Positions 38,474 through 51,731 of a stretch of DNA of 64,000 bases are shown one piece after another. The number at the start of each line of letters is the position of its first letter. Positions within the stretch are counted from its first letter, which is position 1. Location: positions 1-64,000 of the forward strand of contig NZ_JAIVAH010000011.1 of NCBI RefSeq assembly GCF_020171745.1, given 5' to 3'. The notes beneath the pieces were generated by a model. It had not been told where the DNA came from, did not search any database, and saw nothing but the letters and a program-made list of their open reading frames with translations. The translations under genes and the position numbers were made by a program. The stretch is from Prescottella equi. GTDB taxonomy: Bacteria > Actinomycetota > Actinomycetes > Mycobacteriales > Mycobacteriaceae.

Positions 38474-39652
38474 CTAGTTGGAGGAACCGAAGCCGCTCAG
38501 CAGGGACCCGAGGCTGCCCAGACCGCCTCCGTTCTCTCCGCCGTTCCCGGCGGATGCGACGGTGACGGTCGCCTGGCCGGTGCTGGCACCGACCACGCCG
38601 TGACCGTCGAATTCAACGGTGATGACGTGCTGGCCGGCCGCCGCGGGAGTCCACTCCAGAGCGGCGGTGCCATCCGCACCGATGATGGCGGTGCCGATGA
38701 CCGTGTCGCCGTCCTTGAAAGCAACCGTTCCACCCGGTGACGCGGGGACGACCGTCGCGGTCAACGTCGCGACCTCACCCACCTTCGCGCCCGGCACCGG
38801 GGCGAGGGTGGTCGTCGAGGCGACGCCGGATGCCGTGACCGTGACCTGCTGGTCGGCAGACTGCGAGGCATTGGAGAACGCGGTGCCGAGGTACTTGACG
38901 CTCAGCGTGTGAGCGCCCACGGTGGCGGGAGTCCAGGCGAGGGTCGCGGCACGGTTCGCGTCGAGAACTCCGGTGCCGATCTTGGTGGCGCCGTCGTAGA
39001 ACTCGACCGTGTCGCCCTGCGCGCCGCCGCCGGTGAGGGTCGCGGTCAGCGTGCTCTCCTGGCCTGCCACCGCACCGGTCACCGGAGCCAAGGTGGTCGT
39101 CGGACTGTTCTTGCCGACGGTGATGGCTGGGCCCTTGGTGGTGTAGGTGCCGGGACCACGCGAACCGCCGTAGGCCATCCCGGTGGTGAAGTTGGTACCA
39201 CGGTCGCAGTTGTAGCCGGCCGTGTACTGCATGCTCAGGACCGGGGTGTCGACGTTCCTCTTCGACGTCGGCTGGTAGCCCAGCGAGACGAAGTCGACCG
39301 CGGCGAAGTCGGATTGGATCTCGACGAACGGCTCGATCTCATGGACACCGGCGGCGTCCGTCACCTTGGCGGAGCCGGGCACATAGGTCAGGCAGGTCGG
39401 GTGGAAGTCCTTCACCCAATTGAGCGCCTCCCAGTTCGCGTCCGTGCGGGCCCACTTGGTGGTCACCGTGACGATGTCACCGCCGACCGGAGTGACGTTG
39501 TCGATCGTGCGGGTGAAGGTCGAGGACTGGTCGGCCCAAGTGATGCTTGCGGGCGCCGCATCGGCAACGCTGGTACCGAACACGGACAGAACGCCGATCG
39601 CGAGTGTGGTGGCCGCGCCCGCGGCCCCGCCGCGTCGTGTTGCTCTGGGCAT
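38474..39652 (-). CDS. Secreted Ig-like repeat surface protein, 2 repeats
   Basis: 392 aa. Signal peptide (MPRATRRGGAAGAATTLAIG, cleavage near ADAAP), then the island's shared N-terminal domain of about 140 residues with two conserved cysteines (PTCLTYVPGSA and GYNCDRGT), a first Ig-like repeat (TLAPVTGAVAGQESTLTATL...) and a second (TLAPVPGAKVGEVATLTATVV...), and a tail GGGLGSLGSLLSGFGSSN. Ig-like repeats of this Big_3_5 type are adhesion modules. ATG follows GAAGGAG. Own terminator downstream, and a hairpin pair separates it from the upstream gene, so it likely has its own promoter. Function in adhesion or envelope structure is inference. Confidence 0.88.
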   Translation of the reverse strand: MPRATRRGGAAGAATTLAIGVLSVFGTSVADAAPASITWADQSSTFTRTIDNVTPVGGDIVTVTTKWARTDANWEALNWVKDFHPTCLTYVPGSAKVTDAAGVHEIEPFVEIQSDFAAVDFVSLGYQPTSKRNVDTPVLSMQYTAGYNCDRGTNFTTGMAYGGSRGPGTYTTKGPAITVGKNSPTTTLAPVTGAVAGQESTLTATLTGGGAQGDTVEFYDGATKIGTGVLDANRAATLAWTPATVGAHTLSVKYLGTAFSNASQSADQQVTVTASGVASTTTLAPVPGAKVGEVATLTATVVPASPGGTVAFKDGDTVIGTAIIGADGTAALEWTPAAAGQHVITVEFDGHGVVGASTGQATVTVASAGNGGENGGGLGSLGSLLSGFGSSN

Positions 39653-39726
39653 CTCAATACTCCTTCGTTCGAGGGGTGTGCTGCTTGTGCAGTTCTGTGC
39701 CGCAACGGCACTCGCGCAAGATTCCG

Positions 39727-39774
39727 GATCCCGGGCTTCGGGGCCTCGAGGTTGTGACGCCGAAGCCCGGGATC
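39727..39774 (-). terminator. Strong hairpin downstream of the 1220-aa gene
   Basis: GATCCCGGGCTTCGG (39727-39741) and CCGAAGCCCGGGATC (39760-39774) form a perfect 15-bp stem between the giant repeat gene and the next paralogue, followed by little T-tract. It is the second of two hairpins in this gap. Confidence 0.75.
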
Positions 39775-39781
39775 AGGGGGC

Positions 39782-39819
39782 GGCTTCCGTCGCCGTTCCG
39801 GTAGACGACGACGGAAGCC
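39782..39819 (-). terminator. Hairpin immediately past the 1220-aa gene stop
   Basis: GGCTTCCGTCG (39782-39792) and CGACGGAAGCC (39809-39819) form an 11-bp perfect stem 11 bp after the stop codon. Confidence 0.65.
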
Positions 39820-39829
39820 GTGTCAGCCG

Positions 39830-42800
39830 CTAGCTGCCGAAGCCGCCGAACAGGGAACCGAGGCTGCCGAAGCCGCCGCCATTGCCGCCGGCGGGTGCGA
39901 CGGTGACGGTCGCGTGGTCGGTGCCGGCCTCGACCGTGCTGTGACCGTCGAACTCAACCGTGATGACGGGTGAGCCGGCCGCCGTTGGGGTCCACTGCAG
40001 GGTGGCGATTCCATCCGCGCCGATGATCGCGGTGCCGATGACCGTGTTGCCCTCCTTGAAGGTGACCGTGCCACCCGCAGCAGCCGGACTCAGCGTGGCC
40101 TTCAGCGTGGTGATCTGACCGACCTTCGCACCTGAGATGGGGGCGAGTTCGACCGACGACACCACATCGGCGTCGGCGACCGTCACCTGCTGGGTGGTCG
40201 TGGAGCCGAGGACGCCTGTGCGGCCGGAGAACTCCGCCTCCAGGGTCCGGGCACCGGCGGTTGCCGGGGTCCAGGTGGTGGTGGCCCTTCCGTCAGCGCC
40301 GACATTGCCGGTGCCGATAACGGTAGCGCCGTCCTTGAACTCGACCGTGCCACCCGCAGCAGCCGGCGACACCGTCGCCGTCAATGTGGTCGGCTGGCCG
40401 ACCTTCGCACCCGAAACCGTGGCGAGGGTGGTCGCGGACGCGACATCAGCCGCGTCGACCGTGACCTGCTGGCTCGTGGTCGACCCGAGAACACCCGTGC
40501 GACCGGAGAACACTGCCTCCAGCGTCCGCGCACCACCCGACGTCGGGGTCCAGGAGGTGCTGGCGGTGCCATCGGCGGCGACCGGAACGGTCGCCAGAAC
40601 CGTAGTACCGTCCCGGAACTCGACCGAGCCACCCGCAGCGGCGGGGCTGACCGTCGCCGTCAACGTCGTCGGCTGGCCGACCTTCGCGCCCGAAACCGGA
40701 GCCAGGGTCGTCGTGGAAGCAACATCGGCTGCCTCGACCGTGACCTGCTGGGAAGTGGTCGATCCAAGAACACCAGTGCGCCCGGAGAACACCGCCTCCA
40801 GCGTGTGGGCACCGCCCGCAGCCGGGGTCCACGAGGTAGTGGCGATGCCATCAGCACCGACGTTGGCGGTGCCGATCACGGTGGCGCCGTCCTTGAACTC
40901 GACCGTGCCACCCGCAGCAGCCGGCGACACCGTTGCCGTCAATGTGGTTGCGACACCGGCCTTTGCGCCAGTCACAGAACCGAGCAGGACCGACGAAGCA
41001 ACGTCCGCTGCCTCGACTGTGACCTGTTGGCTCGTGTTCGACCCGAGAACACCATTGCGGCCGGAGAACACCGCATGCACCGTGCGCGCTCCACCGGCAG
41101 TCGGGCTCCACACGGTGCTGGCCGTGCCATCGGCACCGACCTCGACCGAAGCGATCAGTTCAGTGCCATCACGGAACTCGACCGTGCCACCCGCAGCAGC
41201 CGGCGACACCGTCGCCGTCAACGTGCTCGCAACGCCGACCTTCGCACCCGAGACCGGAGCCAGAGTGGTCGTGGAAGCGACATCCGCCGCCGCTACCGTC
41301 ACATCCTGCGTCGTGGCCGACGCGAGAACACCTGCATGACCGGCGAACTCAGCCGACAGGATCCGGACACCATCGGTAGCCGGCGTCCAGGGCGTGGTAG
41401 CCGTGCCATCCGCAGCAACAGTTCCGGTACCGATCACATCAGCGCCGTCCTTGAAGGTCACCGTGCCACCCACAGCCGCCGGACTGACCGTCGCCGTCAA
41501 CGTGCTCGCAACGCCGACCTTCGCACCCGACACCGAAGCCAGGGTCGTCGTCGAAGCAACATCAGCCGCCGCAACCGTCACATCCTGCGTCGTGGCCGAC
41601 GCGAGAACACCTGCATGACCCGCGAACTCAGCCGACACAGTACGAACACCATCGGTGACCGGCGTCCACGAAGTCGTAGCCGTGCCATCCGCACCAACAG
41701 TTCCGGTACCGATCACATCAGCGCCGTCCTTGAAGGTGACCGTGCCACCCGCAGCCGCCGGACTGACCGTAGCCGTCAACGTGCTCGCGACGCCGACCTT
41801 CGCACCCGACACCGGAGCCAGAGTGGTCGTGGAAGCGACATCGGCCTCGGCAACCGTCACGGACTGGCTGGTCGTCGATCCGAGAACACCCTCACGACCC
41901 GAGAACACCGCCTCGAGCGTCCGCGCACCACCGGTCATCGGGGACCACGAAGCGCTGGCCGTGCCATCGGTACCCACGGTAACCGTGTCGATGACGGTGG
42001 CACCGTCACGGAACTCAACCGTGCCGCCCGCACCGGCGGGATTGACCGTCGCCGTCAGCGTGCTGACCTGGCCGACCTTCGCGCCAGTGACCGAACCCAA
42101 CTCGACCGACGACACAACATCAGCCGCGGCAACTGTCACATCTTGCGTGGTCGCCGATCCGAGAACACCAGCGCGGCCGGAGAACTCCGCCGACAACGTT
42201 CGGGCACCATCGGTAGCCGGCGTCCATGACGTCGTCGCGAAGCCATCAGCACCAACATTGGCGCTGCCGATGACGGTGGTGCCGTCCTTGAAGGTGACCG
42301 TGCCACCCGCAGCCGCCGGCGACACAGTCGCCGTCAACGTGCTGACCTGGCCGACCTTCGCGCCAGTGACCGAACCCAACACGACCGACGACACAATATC
42401 CGCATCCGCGACCGTCACATCCTGCGTAGTCGTGGATCCGAGAACACCGGTGCGGCCGGAGAACACAGCCTCCAGGGTCCGCGCACCACCTGCGGCCGGC
42501 GTCCACGAAGTGGTGGCCGTGCCATCCGCAGCAACGGTTCCGGTGCCGATGACCGCAGCGCCATCACGGAACTCGACCGTTCCACCCGCACCGGCCGGCG
42601 ACACCGTCGCCGTCAACGTGCTCGCGATACCGGCCTTCGCGCCCGACACCGGAGCGAGAGCGATCGACGAAGTCACGTCAGCCTGCACCGTCTGCGGCGT
42701 CGACTGGGACGCGTTCGCAACGGTGGTGCCAACGAACTTCGCACTCAGGGTGTACGCACCCGCGACCGCGGGAGTCCAGGCATAGCTGGCGATGCCGGAC

Positions 42801-43492
42801 GCATCGAGGGTGCCCTGGCCCAACTTGGTTGCGCCGTTGTAGAATTCGACGACGTTGCCCGAAGCGCTGCCGCCCCCGACGACGGTAGCGGTCAAGGTCG
42901 TCGACTGGCCCACCCGGACGCCGGTCACCGGGGCGAGCGTGGTGACAGGGTTACCCTTGCCAACCGTGAAGTTGGGTCCACCGAAGCCGTAGTAGCCGGC
43001 GCCGCGGTCACCGCTGTAGTCCATGCCGGTCGCCAGCGAGGTGCCGATGGCGCAGTTGGCACCGACCGTGTACTGCAAAGCGTAGGTCGGGTTGTTCGTG
43101 CCCGGTGCGTTGGCCCAGCTGCCGTTGATGGTGGCGATGCCGCTCGGCGGTGTGCCACCCCGGTTGGGGTTGACCGTGGGGGTGATCGGGACGCCGTTCA
43201 TCGTGGCCGAGCCGGGAACGTAGGTCAGGCAGGGCGGGAACACGTCCGTGGCCCAGGCGATGGTTTCGGTGACGTTGTCGGTTCGCCGCCACTTGGTGGT
43301 GACCGTGATGGTCTCGCCCACCCCGGGAGTGCCGTTGCTGATGGTGCGGTTGAAACTGGTCTTCCCGTCGGCCCAGTCACGCACGACAGGCGCCGCATCG
43401 GCAACGCTGGTGCCGAAAACGGTCAGTACGCCGATCGCGAGTGTCGTTGCCGCGCACGCGGCGACGCCGCGTCGTGTGGCTCTAGATTTCAT
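39830..43492 (-). CDS. Giant secreted Ig-like repeat surface protein, 11 repeats
   Basis: 1220 aa, ATG at 43492 after AGAAGGAAAG. Signal peptide (MKSRATRRGVAACAATTLAI, ending ADAAP), the shared N-terminal domain with its cysteine pair (PPCLTYVPGSA and GANCAIGT), then eleven Ig-like repeats. Ten of these are about 93 residues each, built as 'S.V.LA.VSGAKVG..STLTATVSPAAAGGTV.FKDG..VIGT..VGADG.A.TSWTP...GARTL.A.FSGR.GVLGS.T.Q.VTVA.ADV'; the first is a divergent form. The tail is GGGFGSLGSLFGGFGS. Repeats 5 and 6 are almost identical in DNA. No LPxTG or membrane anchor is present. Probably an extended stalk presenting the N-terminal domain. Confidence 0.9.
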   Translation of the reverse strand: MKSRATRRGVAACAATTLAIGVLTVFGTSVADAAPVVRDWADGKTSFNRTISNGTPGVGETITVTTKWRRTDNVTETIAWATDVFPPCLTYVPGSATMNGVPITPTVNPNRGGTPPSGIATINGSWANAPGTNNPTYALQYTVGANCAIGTSLATGMDYSGDRGAGYYGFGGPNFTVGKGNPVTTLAPVTGVRVGQSTTLTATVVGGGSASGNVVEFYNGATKLGQGTLDASGIASYAWTPAVAGAYTLSAKFVGTTVANASQSTPQTVQADVTSSIALAPVSGAKAGIASTLTATVSPAGAGGTVEFRDGAAVIGTGTVAADGTATTSWTPAAGGARTLEAVFSGRTGVLGSTTTQDVTVADADIVSSVVLGSVTGAKVGQVSTLTATVSPAAAGGTVTFKDGTTVIGSANVGADGFATTSWTPATDGARTLSAEFSGRAGVLGSATTQDVTVAAADVVSSVELGSVTGAKVGQVSTLTATVNPAGAGGTVEFRDGATVIDTVTVGTDGTASASWSPMTGGARTLEAVFSGREGVLGSTTSQSVTVAEADVASTTTLAPVSGAKVGVASTLTATVSPAAAGGTVTFKDGADVIGTGTVGADGTATTSWTPVTDGVRTVSAEFAGHAGVLASATTQDVTVAAADVASTTTLASVSGAKVGVASTLTATVSPAAVGGTVTFKDGADVIGTGTVAADGTATTPWTPATDGVRILSAEFAGHAGVLASATTQDVTVAAADVASTTTLAPVSGAKVGVASTLTATVSPAAAGGTVEFRDGTELIASVEVGADGTASTVWSPTAGGARTVHAVFSGRNGVLGSNTSQQVTVEAADVASSVLLGSVTGAKAGVATTLTATVSPAAAGGTVEFKDGATVIGTANVGADGIATTSWTPAAGGAHTLEAVFSGRTGVLGSTTSQQVTVEAADVASTTTLAPVSGAKVGQPTTLTATVSPAAAGGSVEFRDGTTVLATVPVAADGTASTSWTPTSGGARTLEAVFSGRTGVLGSTTSQQVTVDAADVASATTLATVSGAKVGQPTTLTATVSPAAAGGTVEFKDGATVIGTGNVGADGRATTTWTPATAGARTLEAEFSGRTGVLGSTTTQQVTVADADVVSSVELAPISGAKVGQITTLKATLSPAAAGGTVTFKEGNTVIGTAIIGADGIATLQWTPTAAGSPVITVEFDGHSTVEAGTDHATVTVAPAGGNGGGFGSLGSLFGGFGS
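41264..41640 (-). repeat. Near-identical 279-bp tandem repeat units
   Basis: A 40-bp stretch at 41301-41340 recurs at 41580-41619, a period of exactly 279 bp (93 codons). The surrounding sequence is highly similar for the whole unit, while other units in the gene differ by many substitutions. The pattern shows recent duplication or gene conversion within the array. Confidence 0.75.
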
Positions 43493-43621
43493 GTCTTTCC
43501 TTCTATCGGTAGGGTGCGGTGTTGTGCTGTGCGGCAACGACACTCGCGGAACATTCTGGTGACTTGGATTCCAACGCCGCGCTTGCTGAGCAAGTGCCGG
43601 TGAAAGCCGTTCGTTACCTCG

Positions 43622-45352
43622 CTAGCTGGAGCCGAAACCGCCGAACAGGACACCGAGACTGCCGAGGCTGCCTCCGCCGGTTTCATCGGCGGGTGCAACG
43701 GTGACGGTCGCGTGGTCGGTGCCGGCCTCGACCGTGCCGTGGCCGGCGAATTCAACGGTGATGACGCGCTGGCCGGCCGCCGTGGGGGTCCACTCCAGCG
43801 CGGCGATCCCGTCAGCACCGATGACGGCGGTGCCGATGACGATGTCGCCGTCCTTGAACGTGACCGTTCCGCCCGCCGCAGCAGGGCTGACCGTCGCTGT
43901 CAACGTGGTGACCTGGCCGACCTTCGCACCCGTCACCGAACCCAACTCGACCGAGGACACCGCATCGGCTGCGTCGACCGTGACCTGCTGACTCGTGGTC
44001 GACCCGAGAACACCCGTACGGCCCGAGAACACCGCGTGCACCGTGCGGACACCGCCCTCAGTCGGGGTCCAGGAAGTGCTGGCCGTGCCATCGGCTGCGA
44101 CCGGAACGGTCGCCAGAACCGCAGTGCCATCACTGAACTCGACCGTGCCACCCGCAGCCGCCGGCGACACCGTCGCGGTCAACGTGCTTGCCTGGCCGAC
44201 CTTCGCACCGGTCACCGAACCCAACACGACCGACGAGGTGACATCCGCATCCGCGACCGTCACATCCTGCGTAGTCGTCGACGAGAGAACACCCGAGCGA
44301 CCGGAGAAGACTGCGGTCAGCGTGCGCGCACCACCGGCGGCCGGTGTCCACGAAGTCGTAGCCGTACCATCAGCCTCGACCGGAACAGTCGCCAGAACCG
44401 CAGTGCCATCACTGAACTCGACCGTGCCACCCGCACCAGCCGGATTGATCGTCGCCGTCAACGTGCCCGCGACACCGACCTTCGCGCCCGAAACGGGGGC
44501 CAGGGTCGTCGTCGAGTCGACATCGGGTGCCGTGACCGTGACCTGCTGGTCGGCGGACTGCGAGGCGTTGGAGAATGCGGTGCCGAGGTACTTGACGCTG
44601 AGCGTATGGGCGCCCGCCGAGTCGGGAGTCCAGGCGAGGGTCGCGGCACGGTTCGCGTCGAGAACACCGGTGCCGATCTTGGTTGTGCCGTCGTAGAACT
44701 CGACCGTATCGCCCTGCGCGGCGCCGCCCGTGATGGTCGCGGTCAGCGTGCTCGCCTGGCCCGTCACAGCACCGGCCACGGGGGCCAGAGTGGTCGTCGG
44801 GCTGTTCTTGGCGACATTGATCGCCGGGCCCTGGGTGGGGTAGCTGCCAGGGCCACGCGAACCGGTGTAGGACATTCCGGTGTTGAAGTTGGTGCCACGA
44901 GCGCAGTTGTAACCGACCGTGTACTGCACACTCATGACCGGCGTGTTGACGTTCCTCTTCGACATCGGTTTGTATCCGAGCGAGGTGAAATCGGCCGCGA
45001 TGAAGTCTGATTGGATCTCGACATACGGCTCGATGCCACGGACACCGCCCTCGTCGGTGACCGTGGCGGAACCGGGCACATACGTCAGACACGCCGGGTG
45101 GAAGTCCTTTACCGTACGAAGCTCCTCCCAGTTCGCGTCCGTACGAGCCCACTTGGTGCTCACCGTGACGACGTCACCACCTACAGGAGTGACATTGTCG
45201 ATCGTGCGAGTGAACGTGGTGGCCCCGTCGGACCAGGTCAGGGTTCCGGGCGCGGCAGTGGCGATGCCGCCGGTGAGGAGGGCATACGCGCCGACCGTGA
45301 AGGTGGTGATCGCGCCCGCCGCAATGGCACGAACGGTTGCTCGGTGAGCCAT
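43622..45352 (-). CDS. Secreted Ig-like repeat surface protein, 4 repeats
   Basis: 576 aa, ATG at 45352 (AAGGACGAC upstream). Signal peptide (MAHRATVRAIAAGAITTFTV), shared N-terminal domain (two cysteines: PACLTYVPGSA, GYNCARGT), four Ig-like repeats and the tail GGSLGSLGVLFGGFGSS. The N-terminal domain and first repeat are close to those of the 392-aa paralogue (identical 'VLDANRAATLAWTP'), while the later repeats match those of the giant protein, so the gene looks like a mosaic of its neighbours. Confidence 0.88.
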   Translation of the reverse strand: MAHRATVRAIAAGAITTFTVGAYALLTGGIATAAPGTLTWSDGATTFTRTIDNVTPVGGDVVTVSTKWARTDANWEELRTVKDFHPACLTYVPGSATVTDEGGVRGIEPYVEIQSDFIAADFTSLGYKPMSKRNVNTPVMSVQYTVGYNCARGTNFNTGMSYTGSRGPGSYPTQGPAINVAKNSPTTTLAPVAGAVTGQASTLTATITGGAAQGDTVEFYDGTTKIGTGVLDANRAATLAWTPDSAGAHTLSVKYLGTAFSNASQSADQQVTVTAPDVDSTTTLAPVSGAKVGVAGTLTATINPAGAGGTVEFSDGTAVLATVPVEADGTATTSWTPAAGGARTLTAVFSGRSGVLSSTTTQDVTVADADVTSSVVLGSVTGAKVGQASTLTATVSPAAAGGTVEFSDGTAVLATVPVAADGTASTSWTPTEGGVRTVHAVFSGRTGVLGSTTSQQVTVDAADAVSSVELGSVTGAKVGQVTTLTATVSPAAAGGTVTFKDGDIVIGTAVIGADGIAALEWTPTAAGQRVITVEFAGHGTVEAGTDHATVTVAPADETGGGSLGSLGVLFGGFGSS

Positions 45353-45419
45353 GACGTTGTCGTCCTTAGTGTTTGGTGTGCGAGTAATCGGGAACGCTCG
45401 CCGCGTATGCGGCTCGGAC

Positions 45420-45447
45420 CCCGGCACCGCACGGGTGCAATGCCGGG
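45420..45447 (-). terminator. Hairpin downstream of the 290-aa gene
   Basis: CCCGGCA (45420-45426) and TGCCGGG (45441-45447) form a 7-bp stem with a 14-nt loop, 26 bp past the stop of the 290-aa Ig-like gene. Confidence 0.45.
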
Positions 45448-45473
45448 CCCCGACCGTTGATTGCTCGGTTCGT

Positions 45474-46346
45474 CTAGCTGGAACCGAAGCTGCCGAACAG
45501 GGAATCGAGGCTGCCGGCGACGCCGTCCGACGCGGGCGCCTCCGCGACCGTGACGACGGCACTGGTCGTGGCGGTGCCTGCGGGCCCGGTGTAGGTGGCG
45601 GTGATGGTGCGCTCTCCCGCAGTGGTCGGCGTCCAGGCGCGGGTGGCGGTGCCGTCGGGGCCGACGGTGGCGGTGCCGATGACGGTGTCGCCGTCCTTGA
45701 ACTCGACGGTGCCGGCGGCGGACGGGGTGACGGTGGCGGTCAGGGTGGTCGCGGTACCGACGGCGGCGCCGCTGACCGGGGCGAGTGCCGCGGTGAAGCT
45801 GTCCTTCGCGACGGTGATGGCCGGACCCTTGTTCACGTAGTCACCCTGGCCACGGGAACCGTTGTAGCTCAGCCCGGTGTAGAGGGCCGTCTCGCGGGCA
45901 CAGTCGGCACCGACGGTGTACTGGAAGCTGAGGGTCGGAGTGTCGACGTTCCTCTTGGAGACCGGCTTGTAGCCGGACGTAGCGAAGTCGGCGGCGGCGA
46001 AGTCGGGCTTGATCTCTACGTACGGCTCGACCGCGTGGACACCGGCGATGCCGGTCAGTGTGGCGGAGCCGGGCACGTAGGTCAGGCAGGTGGGATGGAA
46101 GTCCTTGGCCCACACCAGCTCTTCCCAGTGGGCGTCGTTGCGCGCCCAGGTGGTGCTGATGGTGATGACATCACCGGGGTTCGGGGTGGCGTTGCTGACG
46201 GTGCGGGTGAGGTTCGTCCCGCCGTCGTTCCACGTGATGGATTGGGACGCGGCGGTCGCGACGCCGCCGGCGAGAAGGACGGCGGCGCCGGCCGCGAGGG
46301 CGGTGGTGGCAGCGGTGACGCTTCGGATGGTTGCGAGTCGAGCCAT
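45474..46346 (-). CDS. Secreted Ig-like repeat surface protein, 1 repeat
   Basis: 290 aa, ATG at 46346 after AAGGAG. Signal peptide (MARLATIRSVTAATTALAAG), shared N-terminal domain (cysteines in PTCLTYVPGSA and GADCARET), one Ig-like repeat (LAPVSGAAVGTATTLTATV...) and the tail GSLDSLFGSFGSS. Only 61 bp separate it from the next gene upstream, so the two may share a transcript. Confidence 0.86.
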   Translation of the reverse strand: MARLATIRSVTAATTALAAGAAVLLAGGVATAASQSITWNDGGTNLTRTVSNATPNPGDVITISTTWARNDAHWEELVWAKDFHPTCLTYVPGSATLTGIAGVHAVEPYVEIKPDFAAADFATSGYKPVSKRNVDTPTLSFQYTVGADCARETALYTGLSYNGSRGQGDYVNKGPAITVAKDSFTAALAPVSGAAVGTATTLTATVTPSAAGTVEFKDGDTVIGTATVGPDGTATRAWTPTTAGERTITATYTGPAGTATTSAVVTVAEAPASDGVAGSLDSLFGSFGSS

Positions 46347-46407
46347 GTTGGTCTCCTTGTGATCGGCGCGCACGGCGCGCTCGGGACGGTCGCGAAAGTC
46401 GGGCGGG

Positions 46408-47025
46408 TCAGCTGCCGAAGCCGCCGAGCAGGGAGCCGAGGCTTCCGGTGGCCCCGCCGCCGGTGTCGCCGCCGCCGCCGAGGTAGCTCACCGTGATCGA
46501 CGGGCCCTTGGTGGCGTAGTTGCCGGCGCCGAGAGCACCGTTGTATTCCATGCCGGTGGGGAGCTGGTTGCCGCGCGAGCAGTCGGCGCCGACCGTGTAC
46601 TTGACGGTGAGCACGGGCGACTCCGCGGGGTTCTTCTGCACCGTCCAACTGCTGGCGGAGACGTCGGCGGCGACGAAGCCGGGCTTGATCTCCAGATTCG
46701 GCTCGACATCGAGGGTGCCGCGGTTACCGCTGATCTTGGCCGAGCCTGGAACATAGGTGAGGCAGGTGGGGTGATGATCCTTGATCCAGTAGAGCCGCTC
46801 GGCCGTGTCGTTGGTCCGCTCGAACTTCGTGGTGATCGTGATCGTCTCTCCCACACTGGGAGTCTGATTGCTGACCGTGCGCGTGAAGTGGGAGTAGTAG
46901 TCGTCCCACGTGGTCGAAGCAGGGGCGGCCCCGGCGGCACCGGCGCCGAGGAAAGCGGCTGCGCCCAGCGCGAAAGTCGTTGCCGCACCAGCGGCGATCC
47001 CGCGCGCGATTGTTCGATTTGCCAT
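46408..47025 (-). CDS. Secreted protein: island N-terminal domain alone, no Ig repeat
   Basis: 205 aa, ATG at 47025 after GGAAGGA. Signal peptide (MANRTIARGIAAGAATTFAL), then the shared N-terminal domain (cysteines in PTCLTYVPGSA and GADCSRGN) running straight into the tail GGATGSLGSLLGGFGS. It shows that the N-terminal domain plus tail is the minimal unit of the family and that Ig repeats are an insert between them. The domain itself has no name that I recognise. Confidence 0.83.
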   Translation of the reverse strand: MANRTIARGIAAGAATTFALGAAAFLGAGAAGAAPASTTWDDYYSHFTRTVSNQTPSVGETITITTKFERTNDTAERLYWIKDHHPTCLTYVPGSAKISGNRGTLDVEPNLEIKPGFVAADVSASSWTVQKNPAESPVLTVKYTVGADCSRGNQLPTGMEYNGALGAGNYATKGPSITVSYLGGGGDTGGGATGSLGSLLGGFGS

Positions 47026-47134
47026 CTGTGTTCCTTCCGGTGGAGGGATGCGACCGCTCGGCCCCGACGCCGGTGGGTTGCTGGGGTTCGTCGCTCCGGC
47101 GCCAGGAGACGGCAGCGCCGAGGCGGGGTTGGAG

Positions 47135-47851
47135 CTAACTACCGCCGAGGTTCTTGATGAGCTTGGCGATGGTGTCGGCGGTGAAGTCCGACAGCGAACC
47201 GACGGAGCTGAGCTGGCCCTCGGACGAGCCGAAGCCTGCGGCGTCCGCGCTGCCGGTGACGGTCTCGCCCGGGTTCTTCTCCCGCACCGTGAAGCAAGCG
47301 TTGAGGTTCTCCCTCCTGATACCAACCCCGACGGTGCCGCTGACATCGATTCCGCCACTGGTGATCTGGACACCCGGCACGGCGCCCTGCGGGACCCGAT
47401 AGGTGAATTCGGCAGTCACCGAGTTGCCGGAGTTGACGAACCAGCCGGTGCTGCTGACCCGCCAGCCGCCGTCGCCGGTCGGCACCGGGGTGACGTTCTC
47501 CGTCTTCTGCCCCTGAGCGAGGTGGTAGGCCGTGACCTTCGCCGAGACGGGCGCGCCGAATCCTGCAGGCGCATAGTCACGGATGGTATTCACGTAGGGA
47601 TTCCCGATACCCGTGGTCCCGACGACGATCTTGTAGGTCACGTTGGTGCCGGCGGCGGCCTCCGTGACGGTGACGCTCTTGTCGTAGGTGTGGGTGACCC
47701 ACACCGTGCTGGCGTCGTTCTTCGTGGTGTGGCTGGCCTGCTCGCACACCGGCGCGGCGTGCGCGATGCCGCCGCTCACAACGAGGAGGCCTGCGGGCAG
47801 TGCGGCAACCGCCGCGAGAGCTGCGATGCGACGAGCGAAGTTCCGCTGCAT
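47135..47851 (-). CDS. Secreted protein of the surface island, divergent member
   Basis: 238 aa. Signal peptide (MQRNFARRIAALAAVAALPAG, ending AHAAP), mature part with two cysteines (PVCEQA and NACFTV) and a DUF11-like beta pattern (GTNVTYKIVVGTTGIGNPYVNTIRDYAPAGFG). It lacks the CLTYVPGSA domain and the Ig repeat. The tail is longer and amphipathic (SEGQLSSVGSLSDFTADTIAKL) but keeps the Ser/Gly/Leu theme. It is the first gene of the row, 109 bp upstream of the no-repeat member. Confidence 0.78.
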   Translation of the reverse strand: MQRNFARRIAALAAVAALPAGLLVVSGGIAHAAPVCEQASHTTKNDASTVWVTHTYDKSVTVTEAAAGTNVTYKIVVGTTGIGNPYVNTIRDYAPAGFGAPVSAKVTAYHLAQGQKTENVTPVPTGDGGWRVSSTGWFVNSGNSVTAEFTYRVPQGAVPGVQITSGGIDVSGTVGVGIRRENLNACFTVREKNPGETVTGSADAAGFGSSEGQLSSVGSLSDFTADTIAKLIKNLGGS

Positions 47852-48999: not shown

Positions 49000-49956
49000 T
49001 CAGTGGGAGATCAGGGCGGGCATGGTTCGCTCGGCGAGGTCTGGCTCCTCCATCGCCCTGACCAGGTCGGGGCGTGCTTCACGCGTGCACCGGGCGACTT
49101 CTACGAAAGCACGAACCAGCGGTGAATCGTTATCTCGCGGCCACCCCACCGCCACCTCGCTCGGAAGGTCTGCGGTCATCGGCACCAGCGTCACTCCCGG
49201 GAAGGGTATCCAGCGGGCGGACGCCACCGTCACCGCGACACCGTCACCGGCCGCCACCTTGTGGTACTCCTCCAACAGCGTCGTCGAGCGGGACACCACC
49301 TGCGCGCGCTTTCCTCCGCGGAGGTGATCGAGTTCCCAGTACGAGTTCCACACCGAGTCGGTACACGCCGCCCCGAAGAGCGGCTCGTCGATCAGTTCGG
49401 CCGCCGCCACCGAGGCGCGATCGGCGAGGTGGTGACCGGACCGCATCATCACCACACGCGGCTCGTGGAACAAGGGCTCGAAGTCGACACCCTCGGCCAT
49501 GAGTGGACGCCGCACGAAGGCCACATCGACGGACCGGTCGTTGAGCCCGGCCGACGGATCGTCATAGTTGAACTGGCGCATCTCGATCGTCACGCCGGGG
49601 TGTCGATTGCGAAAGGCCGACAGGATCGGCTCCGTCAAAACCAGTGCCGCGCCCTCGAAGAAGCCCAACACCAACCGTCCGTGTTCGCCGCGCTCGAGGG
49701 AGCGGGCGCGCTCGGTCGCGTCGTCGAGGGTCGCCAGCAGCCCCCGCACGTCCTCGAAGAAGGCGGCACCGGCCACGGTCAGCGTCACGCTGCGCGTGGT
49801 TCGGGTCAGCAGTGACACGCCGAGGGTCTGTTCCAACTGTTTGATCTGCGCGCTCAGCGCCTGCTGCGCGATGTGGAGTCGCTGTGCTGCCCGGGTGAAG
49901 CTCAATTCCTCTGCCACGGCGATGAAATAGCGAAGTTGACGAGTATGGAGCTCCAT
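49000..49956 (-). CDS. LysR-family transcriptional regulator
   Basis: 318 aa. N-terminal helix-turn-helix is textbook (MELHTRQLRYFIAVAEELSF, QQALSAQIKQLEQTLGVSLL), with an effector domain after residue 90. ATG at 49956 gives the standard start; a longer frame exists upstream but adds a non-homologous stretch. Divergent from the response-regulator/flavoprotein gene, 116 bp away, so it may control that operon or itself. Confidence 0.9.
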   Translation of the reverse strand: MELHTRQLRYFIAVAEELSFTRAAQRLHIAQQALSAQIKQLEQTLGVSLLTRTTRSVTLTVAGAAFFEDVRGLLATLDDATERARSLERGEHGRLVLGFFEGAALVLTEPILSAFRNRHPGVTIEMRQFNYDDPSAGLNDRSVDVAFVRRPLMAEGVDFEPLFHEPRVVMMRSGHHLADRASVAAAELIDEPLFGAACTDSVWNSYWELDHLRGGKRAQVVSRSTTLLEEYHKVAAGDGVAVTVASARWIPFPGVTLVPMTADLPSEVAVGWPRDNDSPLVRAFVEVARCTREARPDLVRAMEEPDLAERTMPALISH

Positions 49957-50072
49957 GGCCGCGAGTGTAGGCGGAACCACCCGCTGCACGGCCGCGATCC
50001 GCCCGACGCCGTTCCCACATCTGCGGCATACTCGAAACCGGCGGCTGAGCGGCGGCCGCACCTGGGAGAACA

Positions 50073-51731
50073 ATGGCACAGCCTGCAATTCTCAGCGTCG
50101 ACGACGATCCGAGCGTCTCCCGCGCCATCGTCCGGGACCTCCGTCGCCGCTACGGCGAGAAGTACCGGATCATCCGGGCCGAATCGGGCGACGCGGCGCT
50201 GGCCGCGCTCGAGGAGATCAAGCTGCGCGGCGACCCGGTCGCGGTGCTGCTCGCCGACTACCGCATGCCGGGCATGAGCGGCATCGAATTCCTCGAACAG
50301 GGCATGGACCTGCATCCCGCGGCGAAGCGGGTGCTGCTCACCGCGTACGCCGACACCGACGCGGCGATCGACGCGATCAACGTCGTCGATCTCGACCACT
50401 ACCTGCTCAAGCCGTGGGATCCGCCCGAGGAGAAGCTGTATCCGGTGCTCGACGCCCTGCTCGACGCCTGGGTGACCTCCGACCGCAAGCCGGTGACCGA
50501 GACCAAGGTGGTGGCGCACCGATGGTCGGCGCGGTCCTCGGAGGTGCGCGAGTTCCTGGCCCGCAACCAGCTGCCCTACCGGTGGTACCTGTCCGACGAA
50601 CCGGAGGGCCAGCGACTCCTCCAGGCGGCGGGCGCCGACGGCATGCACCTGCCGGTCGTGATCACCTCCGACGGGGAGGCGCTGGTGGAGCCGACCGATG
50701 CGGAACTGGCGCTCCACGTCGGACTCGCCACCGTCCCCACATCGGACTTCTACGACCTCGTGGTCATCGGCGGCGGGCCGGCCGGGCTCGGCGCCGCGGT
50801 CTACGGGGCGTCGGAGGGTTTGCGCACGGTGTTGATCGAGCGCACCGCCACCGGCGGGCAGGCCGGGCAGAGTTCCCGGATCGAGAACTACCTCGGCTTC
50901 CCGGACGGGCTGTCCGGGGCCCAGCTCGCCGACCGGGCGCGCAGGCAGGCCGCCAAGTTCGGCGCCGAGGTGATCACCACCCGCGACGTCGTCGGCCTGG
51001 AGGTCAACGGGTCGGCCCGCACCGTTCGGTTCGCCGACGGCGACGCACTGGACGCGCACACCGTCATCCTCGCCACGGGCGTCTCGTATCGGCAGCTGTC
51101 GGCACCCGGACTGAGCGAATTCACCGGCCGCGGAGTGTATTACGGCTCGGCGGTGACGGAGGCCGCGCAGTGCAGCGACCAGGACGTGTACGTGATCGGC
51201 GGGGCGAACTCCGCGGGGCAGGCGGCGGTCTACCTCGCCCGGGGTGCCCGGTCGGTGACCATCGTCGTGCGCGCCGGCTCGCTGGACGACTCCATGTCGC
51301 ACTACCTGATTCAGCAGATCCAACAGAACCCGAGAATCACGGTCCAGACCTGCTCGGAGGTGATCGGCGCGGAAGGCGGCGACCACCTGGAGCGGATCAC
51401 CCTGCGCGACAACACCACCGGCCGCTCCGAATCGGTCGACGCGCAGTGGCTGTTCCTGTTCATCGGGGCCGCACCGCGCACGGACTGGCTCGACGGCGTC
51501 GTGGTCCGCGACGACAACGGTTACGTCGTCTCCGGACCGGACCTGGTGGTCGACGGCCGACGGCCGCCCGGCTGGGAACTCGAGCGCCTGCCGCACCAGC
51601 TGGAGACCAACGTGCCCGGGGTCTTCGCGGCCGGGGACGTGCGCGCCGACTCCGCGAAACGGGTGGCGTCGGCCGTGGGGGAGGGCGCGATGGCCGTCAT
51701 GCTCGTCCACCGCTACCTGGCGAAGCCGTGA
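50073..51731 (+). CDS. Receiver domain fused to thioredoxin-reductase-like flavoprotein
   Basis: 552 aa. Residues 1-125 are a response-regulator receiver (acidic pocket D10-D12, phospho-acceptor D62 in LLADYRMPG, K113). A middle thioredoxin/glutaredoxin-like domain (about 140-215) has ARSSEV where a CxxC would be. Residues 225-552 are a thioredoxin-reductase-like FAD/NAD(P)H module (GGGPAG at 233-238, VIGGANSAGQA, GVFAAGDVR). The redox CxxC is missing; the aligned stretch is YYGSAVTEAAQC, with one Cys (C367). The stop overlaps the kinase start (GTGA). Proteins of this fused type are known by name but their output is not understood. Confidence 0.9.
   Translation: MAQPAILSVDDDPSVSRAIVRDLRRRYGEKYRIIRAESGDAALAALEEIKLRGDPVAVLLADYRMPGMSGIEFLEQGMDLHPAAKRVLLTAYADTDAAIDAINVVDLDHYLLKPWDPPEEKLYPVLDALLDAWVTSDRKPVTETKVVAHRWSARSSEVREFLARNQLPYRWYLSDEPEGQRLLQAAGADGMHLPVVITSDGEALVEPTDAELALHVGLATVPTSDFYDLVVIGGGPAGLGAAVYGASEGLRTVLIERTATGGQAGQSSRIENYLGFPDGLSGAQLADRARRQAAKFGAEVITTRDVVGLEVNGSARTVRFADGDALDAHTVILATGVSYRQLSAPGLSEFTGRGVYYGSAVTEAAQCSDQDVYVIGGANSAGQAAVYLARGARSVTIVVRAGSLDDSMSHYLIQQIQQNPRITVQTCSEVIGAEGGDHLERITLRDNTTGRSESVDAQWLFLFIGAAPRTDWLDGVVVRDDNGYVVSGPDLVVDGRRPPGWELERLPHQLETNVPGVFAAGDVRADSAKRVASAVGEGAMAVMLVHRYLAKP

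Follow-up and report, generated by a model that had tools for sequence, protein, structure and literature searches.

The 64,000-nucleotide stretch of Prescottella equi DNA analyzed here (contig NZ_JAIVAH010000011.1, positions 1 to 64,000; hereafter the window) is part of a 195.6-kb contig of a 5.49-Mb genome and carries, at 38474–47851, six consecutive minus-strand genes for secreted proteins. Proteins 1 to 5, numbered by rising coordinate, end in a short Gly/Ser/Leu/Phe-rich tail that follows, roughly, the pattern GSLGSL-x(0-6)-F-G-S-COOH. Unrelated signal-peptide-bearing proteins of several genera share this C-terminal element at or near their stop codons. We conclude that the tail is very probably a functional C-terminal signal, and we propose that it probably keeps its carriers in the mycolate membrane. 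The full statement, in which the tail acts as a C-terminal sorting or anchoring signal and acylation is favored but not required, seems to us rather likely. Among mechanisms, anchoring through O-mycoloylation of the tail ranks first for us, though we put it forward tentatively.

Recurrence of the tail on unrelated secreted proteins

A tail-only profile, A1, was built from 24 rows, 16 of them from the P. equi genome (two rows have one wrong residue each), and was searched in the whole of that genome at E ≤ 10. Of its 17 hits, 12 are proteins with immunoglobulin-like (Ig) repeats or with the N-terminal domain of proteins 1–5, here called the head, and most of these are rows of the model. Five hits lie outside the model. 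Four of them end 0–3 residues past the match, namely a YVTN β-propeller and three unknown proteins of 225, 310, and 324 codons, and the fifth and weakest (E 6.3) ends 11 residues past it. The 186-codon neighbor of the 225-codon protein also ends GSLGSLSFGS. Profile A3, the exact mirror of A1 with equal composition and length, found nothing in the P. equi genome, a result that rules against the tail being an artefact of composition.

The search was extended to 61 genomes of the family, from 31 genera and including P. equi, at E ≤ 0.3. A1 gave 34 matches in 11 genomes and five genera. The 19 matches inspected at their loci all lie within seven residues of the stop codon; the other 15 comprise nine from the P. 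equi genome, five island proteins from two same-genus genomes, four of which also figure in the tail survey, and one that was not fetched. A second profile, A6, with 24 tail rows, 20 of them from genus g23, gave 69 matches in ten genomes. Of the 22 underlying proteins that were inspected, 15 have the match within seven residues of the stop codon and three (L197, L199, and L205) have it 10–13 residues away, while the matches in L191, L198, L206, and L220 (E 0.66–2.61), at least 17 residues from the stop, were counted as chance. L148, a hit of a separate search, was set aside, as its tail-like stretch is near the N-terminus.

The bodies that carry the tail among the A1 and A6 matches are diverse: YVTN propellers, NHL, RCC1 with a putative Ig domain, the Gly-rich ALK_LTK_GRD, and several without a Pfam family. 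For L090, a provisional label as an HtaA heme protein was dropped, there being no Pfam match at E ≤ 0.01. Among 27 tail proteins encoded outside the big islands, several of them mutually related, 26 satisfy a rough signal-peptide rule, versus 123 of 912 background frames (which have 200 codons or more and include shadow frames); this count leaves out L185 (an 89-residue frame), L156, and the leaderless peptides described below. The exception, L197, is of the β-lactamase family, and its frame start may be mis-set. For the proteins searched, Pfam and NCBIfam reported no model of the tail itself; a TSP9 match below cut-off covers the end of protein 2 (E 0.032, 15.3 bits vs 25).

In a class-level sample of 148 genomes, A1 hit three, P. 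equi and two genomes of one genus. The hits L105 and L106, from outside the family, were rejected as tails since they are internal, 79 residues before the stop. Confinement of the tail to mycolate-bearing bacteria is weakly supported, because this first look was stricter than the family scan (six P. equi hits instead of nine) and because A1, being of limited sensitivity, missed the family genome G024, in which all four head proteins have an FGS end.

Position at the stop codon and lineage versions

In a set of 74 head or Ig proteins, FGS lies at most three residues from the end in 57, versus two of the 912 background frames, and a serine is found within the last four residues in 68, versus 255 of 912. 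Left out of the set were 18 frames of broken or doubtful genes, and many of its members had already been seen before the FGS rule was written. A further count used 62 head-bearing frames of other genera that were picked through the head and not the tail, although a handful of further tails from g4, g13, and g23 had been seen beforehand. FGS or FGF is found within three residues of the stop in 52 of them (FGS alone in 51), and in 38 of 48 (FGS alone in 37) when genus g21, a source of A1 rows, is removed. By genus, the counts are 4/4 for g12, 0/2 for g13, 2/3 for g19, 14/14 for g21, 0/2 for g22, 31/35 for g23, 1/1 for g25, and 0/1 for g4. Of the four g23 misses, two come from L165: an early-stopping head frame and a probable shadow frame.

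The P. equi genome offers a comparison of tail with head. In 11 of its 14 Ig or head proteins encoded outside the window, on four contigs, FGS lies no more than three residues from the C-terminus, and a GSL-type triplet (GS plus L, V, I, or A) occurs among the last 26 residues of every one of the 14. The front parts of the Ig proteins of this genome vary: some have alternative heads, either a 230-residue type starting near SFKNTC or a Cys-less DUF11-like type, and some have Ig repeats almost from the start. Because Ig proteins with another head, or with no such head, mostly keep the tail, the tail is more constant than the head. To judge from these sequences, heads can be exchanged, and no element is more constant than the tail.

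The tail also has lineage versions. Most island tails of genus g23 read GSxGN[ITVM]FGS or nearly so, at the very end, whereas GSLGSL is the version of the window's genus. Secreted g23 proteins that are unlinked to the islands have similar ends: a propeller-plus-Ig protein (GSAGGVFGS), an unknown protein of 187 codons (GSLDNVFGS), and a 264-codon protein that ends GSLGNLGNIFGS. By eye, the last of these is a likely counterpart of L077 of the P. equi genome, which ends GSLGSLGSLFGSVFS. That unrelated proteins tend to share the tail version of their lineage fits a common reader.

The g23 loci L162 and L164 (G255 and G277) are very large islands; the stretches read hold 11 and 12 frames with a head. 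Of these 23, 22 stop exactly at FGS and one at FGF, and nine sister pairs link G255 and G277. In the nine sister pairs of two g23 genomes, identity averages 90% for the last nine residues, 78% for the heads, and 80% for the linkers that precede the tail.

Several observations weigh against the tail as a sorting or anchoring signal. The two g13 proteins end in FGSLGSLG plus one residue, the two g22 proteins end in GSF, and the g4 protein is without FGS and ends in GSLSSLGG; in these three genera the signal is thus variable or lacking. A terminal serine is not universal, as the ends FGSLGG, FGSSN, FGF, SLGL, and SLGG occur, and three of the 14 P. equi proteins (C33:19675, C12:5243, and C29:4795) have no FGS near the end. 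A1 finds matches in only 11 of the 61 family genomes, though the profile is not very sensitive. The order of conservation is reversed in two of the nine sister pairs, where the head ranks slightly above the last nine residues. Finally, the terminal serine codons are mostly TCC (60 of 76, with 13 TCG and three AGC), and for island members a spread of the tail by recombination within islands is therefore possible.

Taken to its limit, this last point would make the tail a by-product, a low-complexity Gly/Ser/Leu linker without function that was spread by duplication and recombination among neighbors. The islands clearly do grow by duplication, window heads 1, 3, and 4 forming one clade in a tree of 93 heads, and the codon bias agrees with such a history. 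Yet the tail is found at or near the stop of secreted proteins that are neither linked nor related to the island proteins, the mirror profile has no hits, conservation of the last nine residues exceeds on average that of the heads, and the F-G-S end persists in genera with far-diverged heads. We consider a functionless by-product very improbable.

Proposed function of the tail

The six window proteins lack the usual means of attachment. None has an LPXTG motif, none has a lipobox at the signal-peptide cleavage site, and no segment of transmembrane strength is present past residue 60 in any of them (highest 19-residue mean, 1.42). The sequence VAAC in protein 2 was rejected as a lipobox, for it is at residue 13 and precedes the hydrophobic core of the signal peptide. 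An earlier interpretation of the window, made from the DNA letters without database searches (the sequence-only reading), had likewise seen no sortase signal or membrane anchor and had called the mode of retention unknown. The absence of known anchors stands; for the mode of retention there is now a testable proposal by way of the tail.

We propose that the tail-bearing proteins would be exported by Sec and that their free, Gly/Ser-rich C-terminus would be recognized in the outer envelope. Attachment to the mycolate outer membrane would follow, with O-mycoloylation of at least one tail serine by a mycoloyltransferase as the most likely route, and the head would be displayed at a distance set by the number of repeats. 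Judging by architecture alone, the role of the proteins would probably be adhesion or surface coating.

C-terminal elements of this general kind are familiar. LPXTG, PEP-CTERM, and the C-terminal domain of type IX secretion are short or modular C-terminal elements common to otherwise unrelated secreted proteins, and the tail is like them in that respect. It differs in that the window proteins have no sortase motif and no transmembrane segment, in being far shorter than the folded type IX domain, and in ending, typically, at or near a free F-G-S carboxyl terminus.

O-Mycoloylation is favored because the tail offers serines in a Gly/Ser context at a free C-terminus, in the manner of sites in Corynebacterium glutamicum. 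In C. glutamicum, serines of outer-membrane proteins carry attached mycolates; the mapped sites are mostly serines in flexible motifs with neighboring Ser, Gly, or Ala, and Rhodococcus is reported to have Cmt1 orthologues (PMC11066868). The composition of the tail fits this Ser/Gly/Ala-rich context, and from its composition the tail is likely flexible as well. The O-mycoloylated mycomembrane proteins PorH, PorA, and ProtX of C. glutamicum resemble the tail proteins in having mycolate outer-membrane hosts and a serine in a flexible Gly/Ala/Ser context. PorH, a protein of 57 residues, is the precedent: its modified serine, S56, is penultimate, the C-terminus being S57 (PMC12632848). In contrast to the tail proteins, which are larger and have signal peptides, PorA and PorH have 45 and 57 residues and no signal sequence (PMC11927696). 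MspA-type porins of Rhodococcus (PorARc, PorARr, and PorBRr) are likewise proteins of the outer envelope; they belong to the MspA family, and the available text on them mentions no such tail (PMC9233653).

The same literature also speaks against acylation of the tail. O-Mycoloylation sites in C. glutamicum are without a strict consensus (PMC11066868), whereas the tail is conserved and its modification would be an extrapolation. Proteins that are O-mycoloylated at several well-separated sites must have internal ones, and the tail is C-terminal, so the tail may have another reader. In addition, the S56A change in PorH did not by itself abolish surface exposure; loss of the PorA site was also needed (PMC12632848).

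These points bear on an alternative in which the tail acts as a recognition or insertion signal without acylation, either as a short hydrophobic C-terminus read by a machine for transport or assembly or by direct insertion into the mycolate layer. Gram-negative outer-membrane proteins have a C-terminal signal that is read by machinery. A strongly fixed F-G-S end with a spacer that has lineage versions is what a protein–protein recognition motif would be expected to show, and the lack of a strict consensus for O-mycoloylation points the same way. On the other side, no partner machine is identified, none having been searched for, the Gly/Ser-rich context fits the known O-mycoloylation sites, and a C-terminal serine has a precedent. 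We regard a signal that works without acylation as unlikely, and O-mycoloylation remains our preferred mechanism.

The lack of transmembrane segment, sortase signal, and lipobox in the six window proteins would also be expected if the tail were a signal for release or export, by which the proteins would pass through the mycolate membrane and be shed as extracellular matrix or ligand-binding proteins. Several tail-bearing bodies, the propellers for example, are indeed stand-alone secreted folds. A long Ig stalk with a distal head is, however, typical of anchored proteins, and release seems to us distinctly improbable beside retention in the mycolate membrane.

The window gene row

Gene starts were chosen so that a purine-rich stretch precedes and a signal peptide follows, a rule that all six genes satisfy; for proteins 2–5 the chosen start lies downstream of the first in-frame start codon. 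All genes and domains of the row are on the minus strand. Protein 1 (38474..39652, 392 residues) has a signal peptide, a head (39110..39565) of the divergent DUF11 type with a Cys pair, two Big_3_5 repeats (38555..39079), and the tail (38477..38524, GLGSLGSLLSGFGSSN-COOH). In protein 2 (39830..43492, 1220 residues; first in-frame start at 43543), the signal peptide and head (42956..43402) are followed by 11 repeats with a 279-bp period (39896..42925) and the tail (39833..39874, GFGSLGSLFGGFGS-COOH). Protein 3 (43622..45352, 576 residues; first in-frame start at 45562) has a signal peptide, a head (44807..45262), four repeats (43694..44770), and the tail (43625..43672, GSLGSLGVLFGGFGSS-COOH), and protein 4 (45474..46346, 290 residues; first in-frame start at 46373) has a signal peptide, a head (45804..46259), a single repeat (45546..45767), and the tail (45477..45515, GSLDSLFGSFGSS-COOH). 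Protein 5 (46408..47025, 205 residues; first in-frame start at 47373) consists of signal peptide, head (46483..46935), and tail (46411..46446, GSLGSLLGGFGS-COOH), with no Ig repeat.

Protein 6 (47135..47851, 238 residues) is secreted and has a distant DUF11-like body without repeats, whose likeness to the head is only distant (DUF11 E 0.84). It contains an internal GFGSS and then ends differently from proteins 1–5. Relatives 74–82% identical occur in Rhodococcus sp. RD6.2 and, in two copies, in R. tukisamuensis. Adjoining the island is a gene for a LysR-type regulator (49000..50088, minus strand), taken as an open reading frame from its first start and named by eye; its relatives, 73–74% identical, are located in the island stretches of the same two organisms.

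Pfam counts two, 11, four, one, zero, and zero Big_3_5 (PF16640) stretches in proteins 1–6, and proteins 1–4 score 94.2, 448.2, 172.9, and 50.6 bits versus a curated cut-off of 35.5. The Ig repeat numbers of the sequence-only reading (2, 11, 4, 1, 0) are thus reproduced, as is its row of six minus-strand signal-peptide genes, the starts and signal peptides of which were checked. Group 3 Ig-like repeats above the Pfam cut-off and a DUF11-related head make the row like the Big_3_5/DUF11 repeat surface proteins. The row differs from them in having no LPXTG or transmembrane anchor and in its head, which is divergent, single, and Cys-paired.

Elsewhere in the window, the segment 58768–60030 (minus strand) encodes a secreted YVTN-type β-propeller with a 129-bp tandem repeat; the protein ends in AGSLGTFGSFDPAAWTS, which resembles an eroded tail. 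The segment 59789–62557 (minus strand) encodes a protein like replicative DNA helicase that, read by eye, is apparently interrupted by an intein.

The head domain

The head of proteins 1–5 is about 150 residues long, and its Cys pair is invariant in all 27 aligned heads, in agreement with the pair (and the tail) that the sequence-only reading saw in five proteins. That reading left the N-terminal domain unnamed. TIGR01451 is matched by 20 of the 27 heads and PF01345 by 13 (E ≤ 0.05). Among the window proteins, only protein 5 passes the TIGR01451 curated cut-off (29.8 bits vs 24). Scores for proteins 2 and 4 stay below it, at 18.0 and 13.9, proteins 1 and 3 give no match, and none of the six passes the curated cut-off of PF01345. 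Because protein 5 passes and the other heads match DUF11 models in these numbers, we call the head a putative divergent DUF11-type domain, single and Cys-paired. A search of the PDB with a head profile gave no match at E ≤ 1, and the head as a domain of solved structure was therefore dropped.

Of 14 genomes in the genus, 13 carry the head, as do 36 (nine of 31 genera) of the 151 family genomes sampled, P. equi being included in both scans. It often occurs in rows, so the expectation that relatives would carry the same gene row holds in part. The sequence-only reading had also taken the head plus tail as the core and the repeats as a stalk. Its picture of modular secreted proteins with an Ig stalk of variable length is borne out, while its core of head plus tail is right only by half, the tail being the more constant part.

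Repeat number and history of the island

Proteins 1 and 3 have heads that are 75% identical and first repeats that are 87% identical, and they have two and four repeats, respectively. Stalk length thus changes among close copies, as parts that are nearly identical go with different repeat numbers. Repeats 2–10 of protein 2 are 62–92% identical to one another.

In the tree of 93 heads, four of the five window heads group with genus g21 (support 100/99), apart from the other heads of the P. equi genome; the head of protein 2 is a long branch of unsure placement. Across the 13 further genomes of the genus, protein 5 has no best match above 54% identity, and three single-gene loci checked over 16–17 kb contained none of the 13 window proteins tested. 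The view of the window island as ancestral in the genus is disfavored on these three grounds, the low identity of protein 5, the bare single-gene loci, and the nesting of four heads with g21. Transfer between genera and loss elsewhere are both possible.

The second island of P. equi

A second, larger island with nine Ig genes is on contig 33 (C33:979-24845), further Ig or head members are on contigs 4, 12, and 29, and the genome has 87 Big_3_5 matches in all. Presumed second-island counterparts in four genomes have 14, 13, 15, and 11 repeats. In G003 (L053 and L054; listed completeness 79%), many second-island genes are split into overlapping frames, which are probably sequencing errors and were left out of the counts.

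By Pfam, a gene with an acyltransferase domain lies shortly beyond the second island, and UDP-galactopyranose mutase and an antigen-85-type esterase domain are within 15 kb of it. By our reading, these surroundings are an arabinogalactan/mycolate region. In mycobacteria, the repetitive exported protein (Erp) is encoded near the same arabinogalactan/mycolate-region genes.

Small leaderless peptides

One A1 hit, L088, is of another kind. Its product of 39 residues has a good ribosome-binding site and no signal peptide, and it consists of an amphipathic-looking helix, a Gly run, and TGSLGSLFGS. Similar leaderless peptides, with a helix, a Gly run, and mostly a G/S/L-rich end, are found in G033, G214, G241, G058, and G287 and in three genomes of the window's genus. 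In the latter they sit between genes named by eye as acyl-CoA-dehydrogenase-like and 3-hydroxyacyl-CoA-dehydrogenase-like. The nine peptides (L088, L127, L128, L129, L131, L140, L143, L144, and L149) have 33–57 residues. L130 in G007, a 37-residue frame, was rejected, as by eye it seems to be the C-terminal part of a larger tail protein. Since just two of the peptides end in FGS or FGSS, their connection with the tail is no more than suggestive. It is possible that they are outer-membrane peptides like corynebacterial PorA and PorH, which have 45 and 57 residues and are leaderless (PMC11927696).

Implications

Prediction of O-mycoloylated proteins from their sequences is reportedly hampered by the absence of a consensus (PMC11066868). 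Searches of open-licence PMC papers, judged by listings and selected passages, turned up no description of a tail such as this one. It is tempting to go further and to propose, as a possibility on the doubtful side, that the F-G-S tail is the first recognized C-terminal address label for the mycolate outer membrane, read by a dedicated mycoloyltransferase or assembly machine, acylated, and anchoring dozens of unrelated proteins per genome. If so, the lineage versions of the tail (GSLGSL..FGS and GSxGNIFGS) would reflect co-evolution with the reader machine, and the small leaderless helical peptides would be PorH-like partners in the same pathway. A C-terminal element of 12–18 residues would give a predictable candidate set of outer-membrane proteins, and the tail would serve as a minimal substrate for finding the enzyme that reads it.

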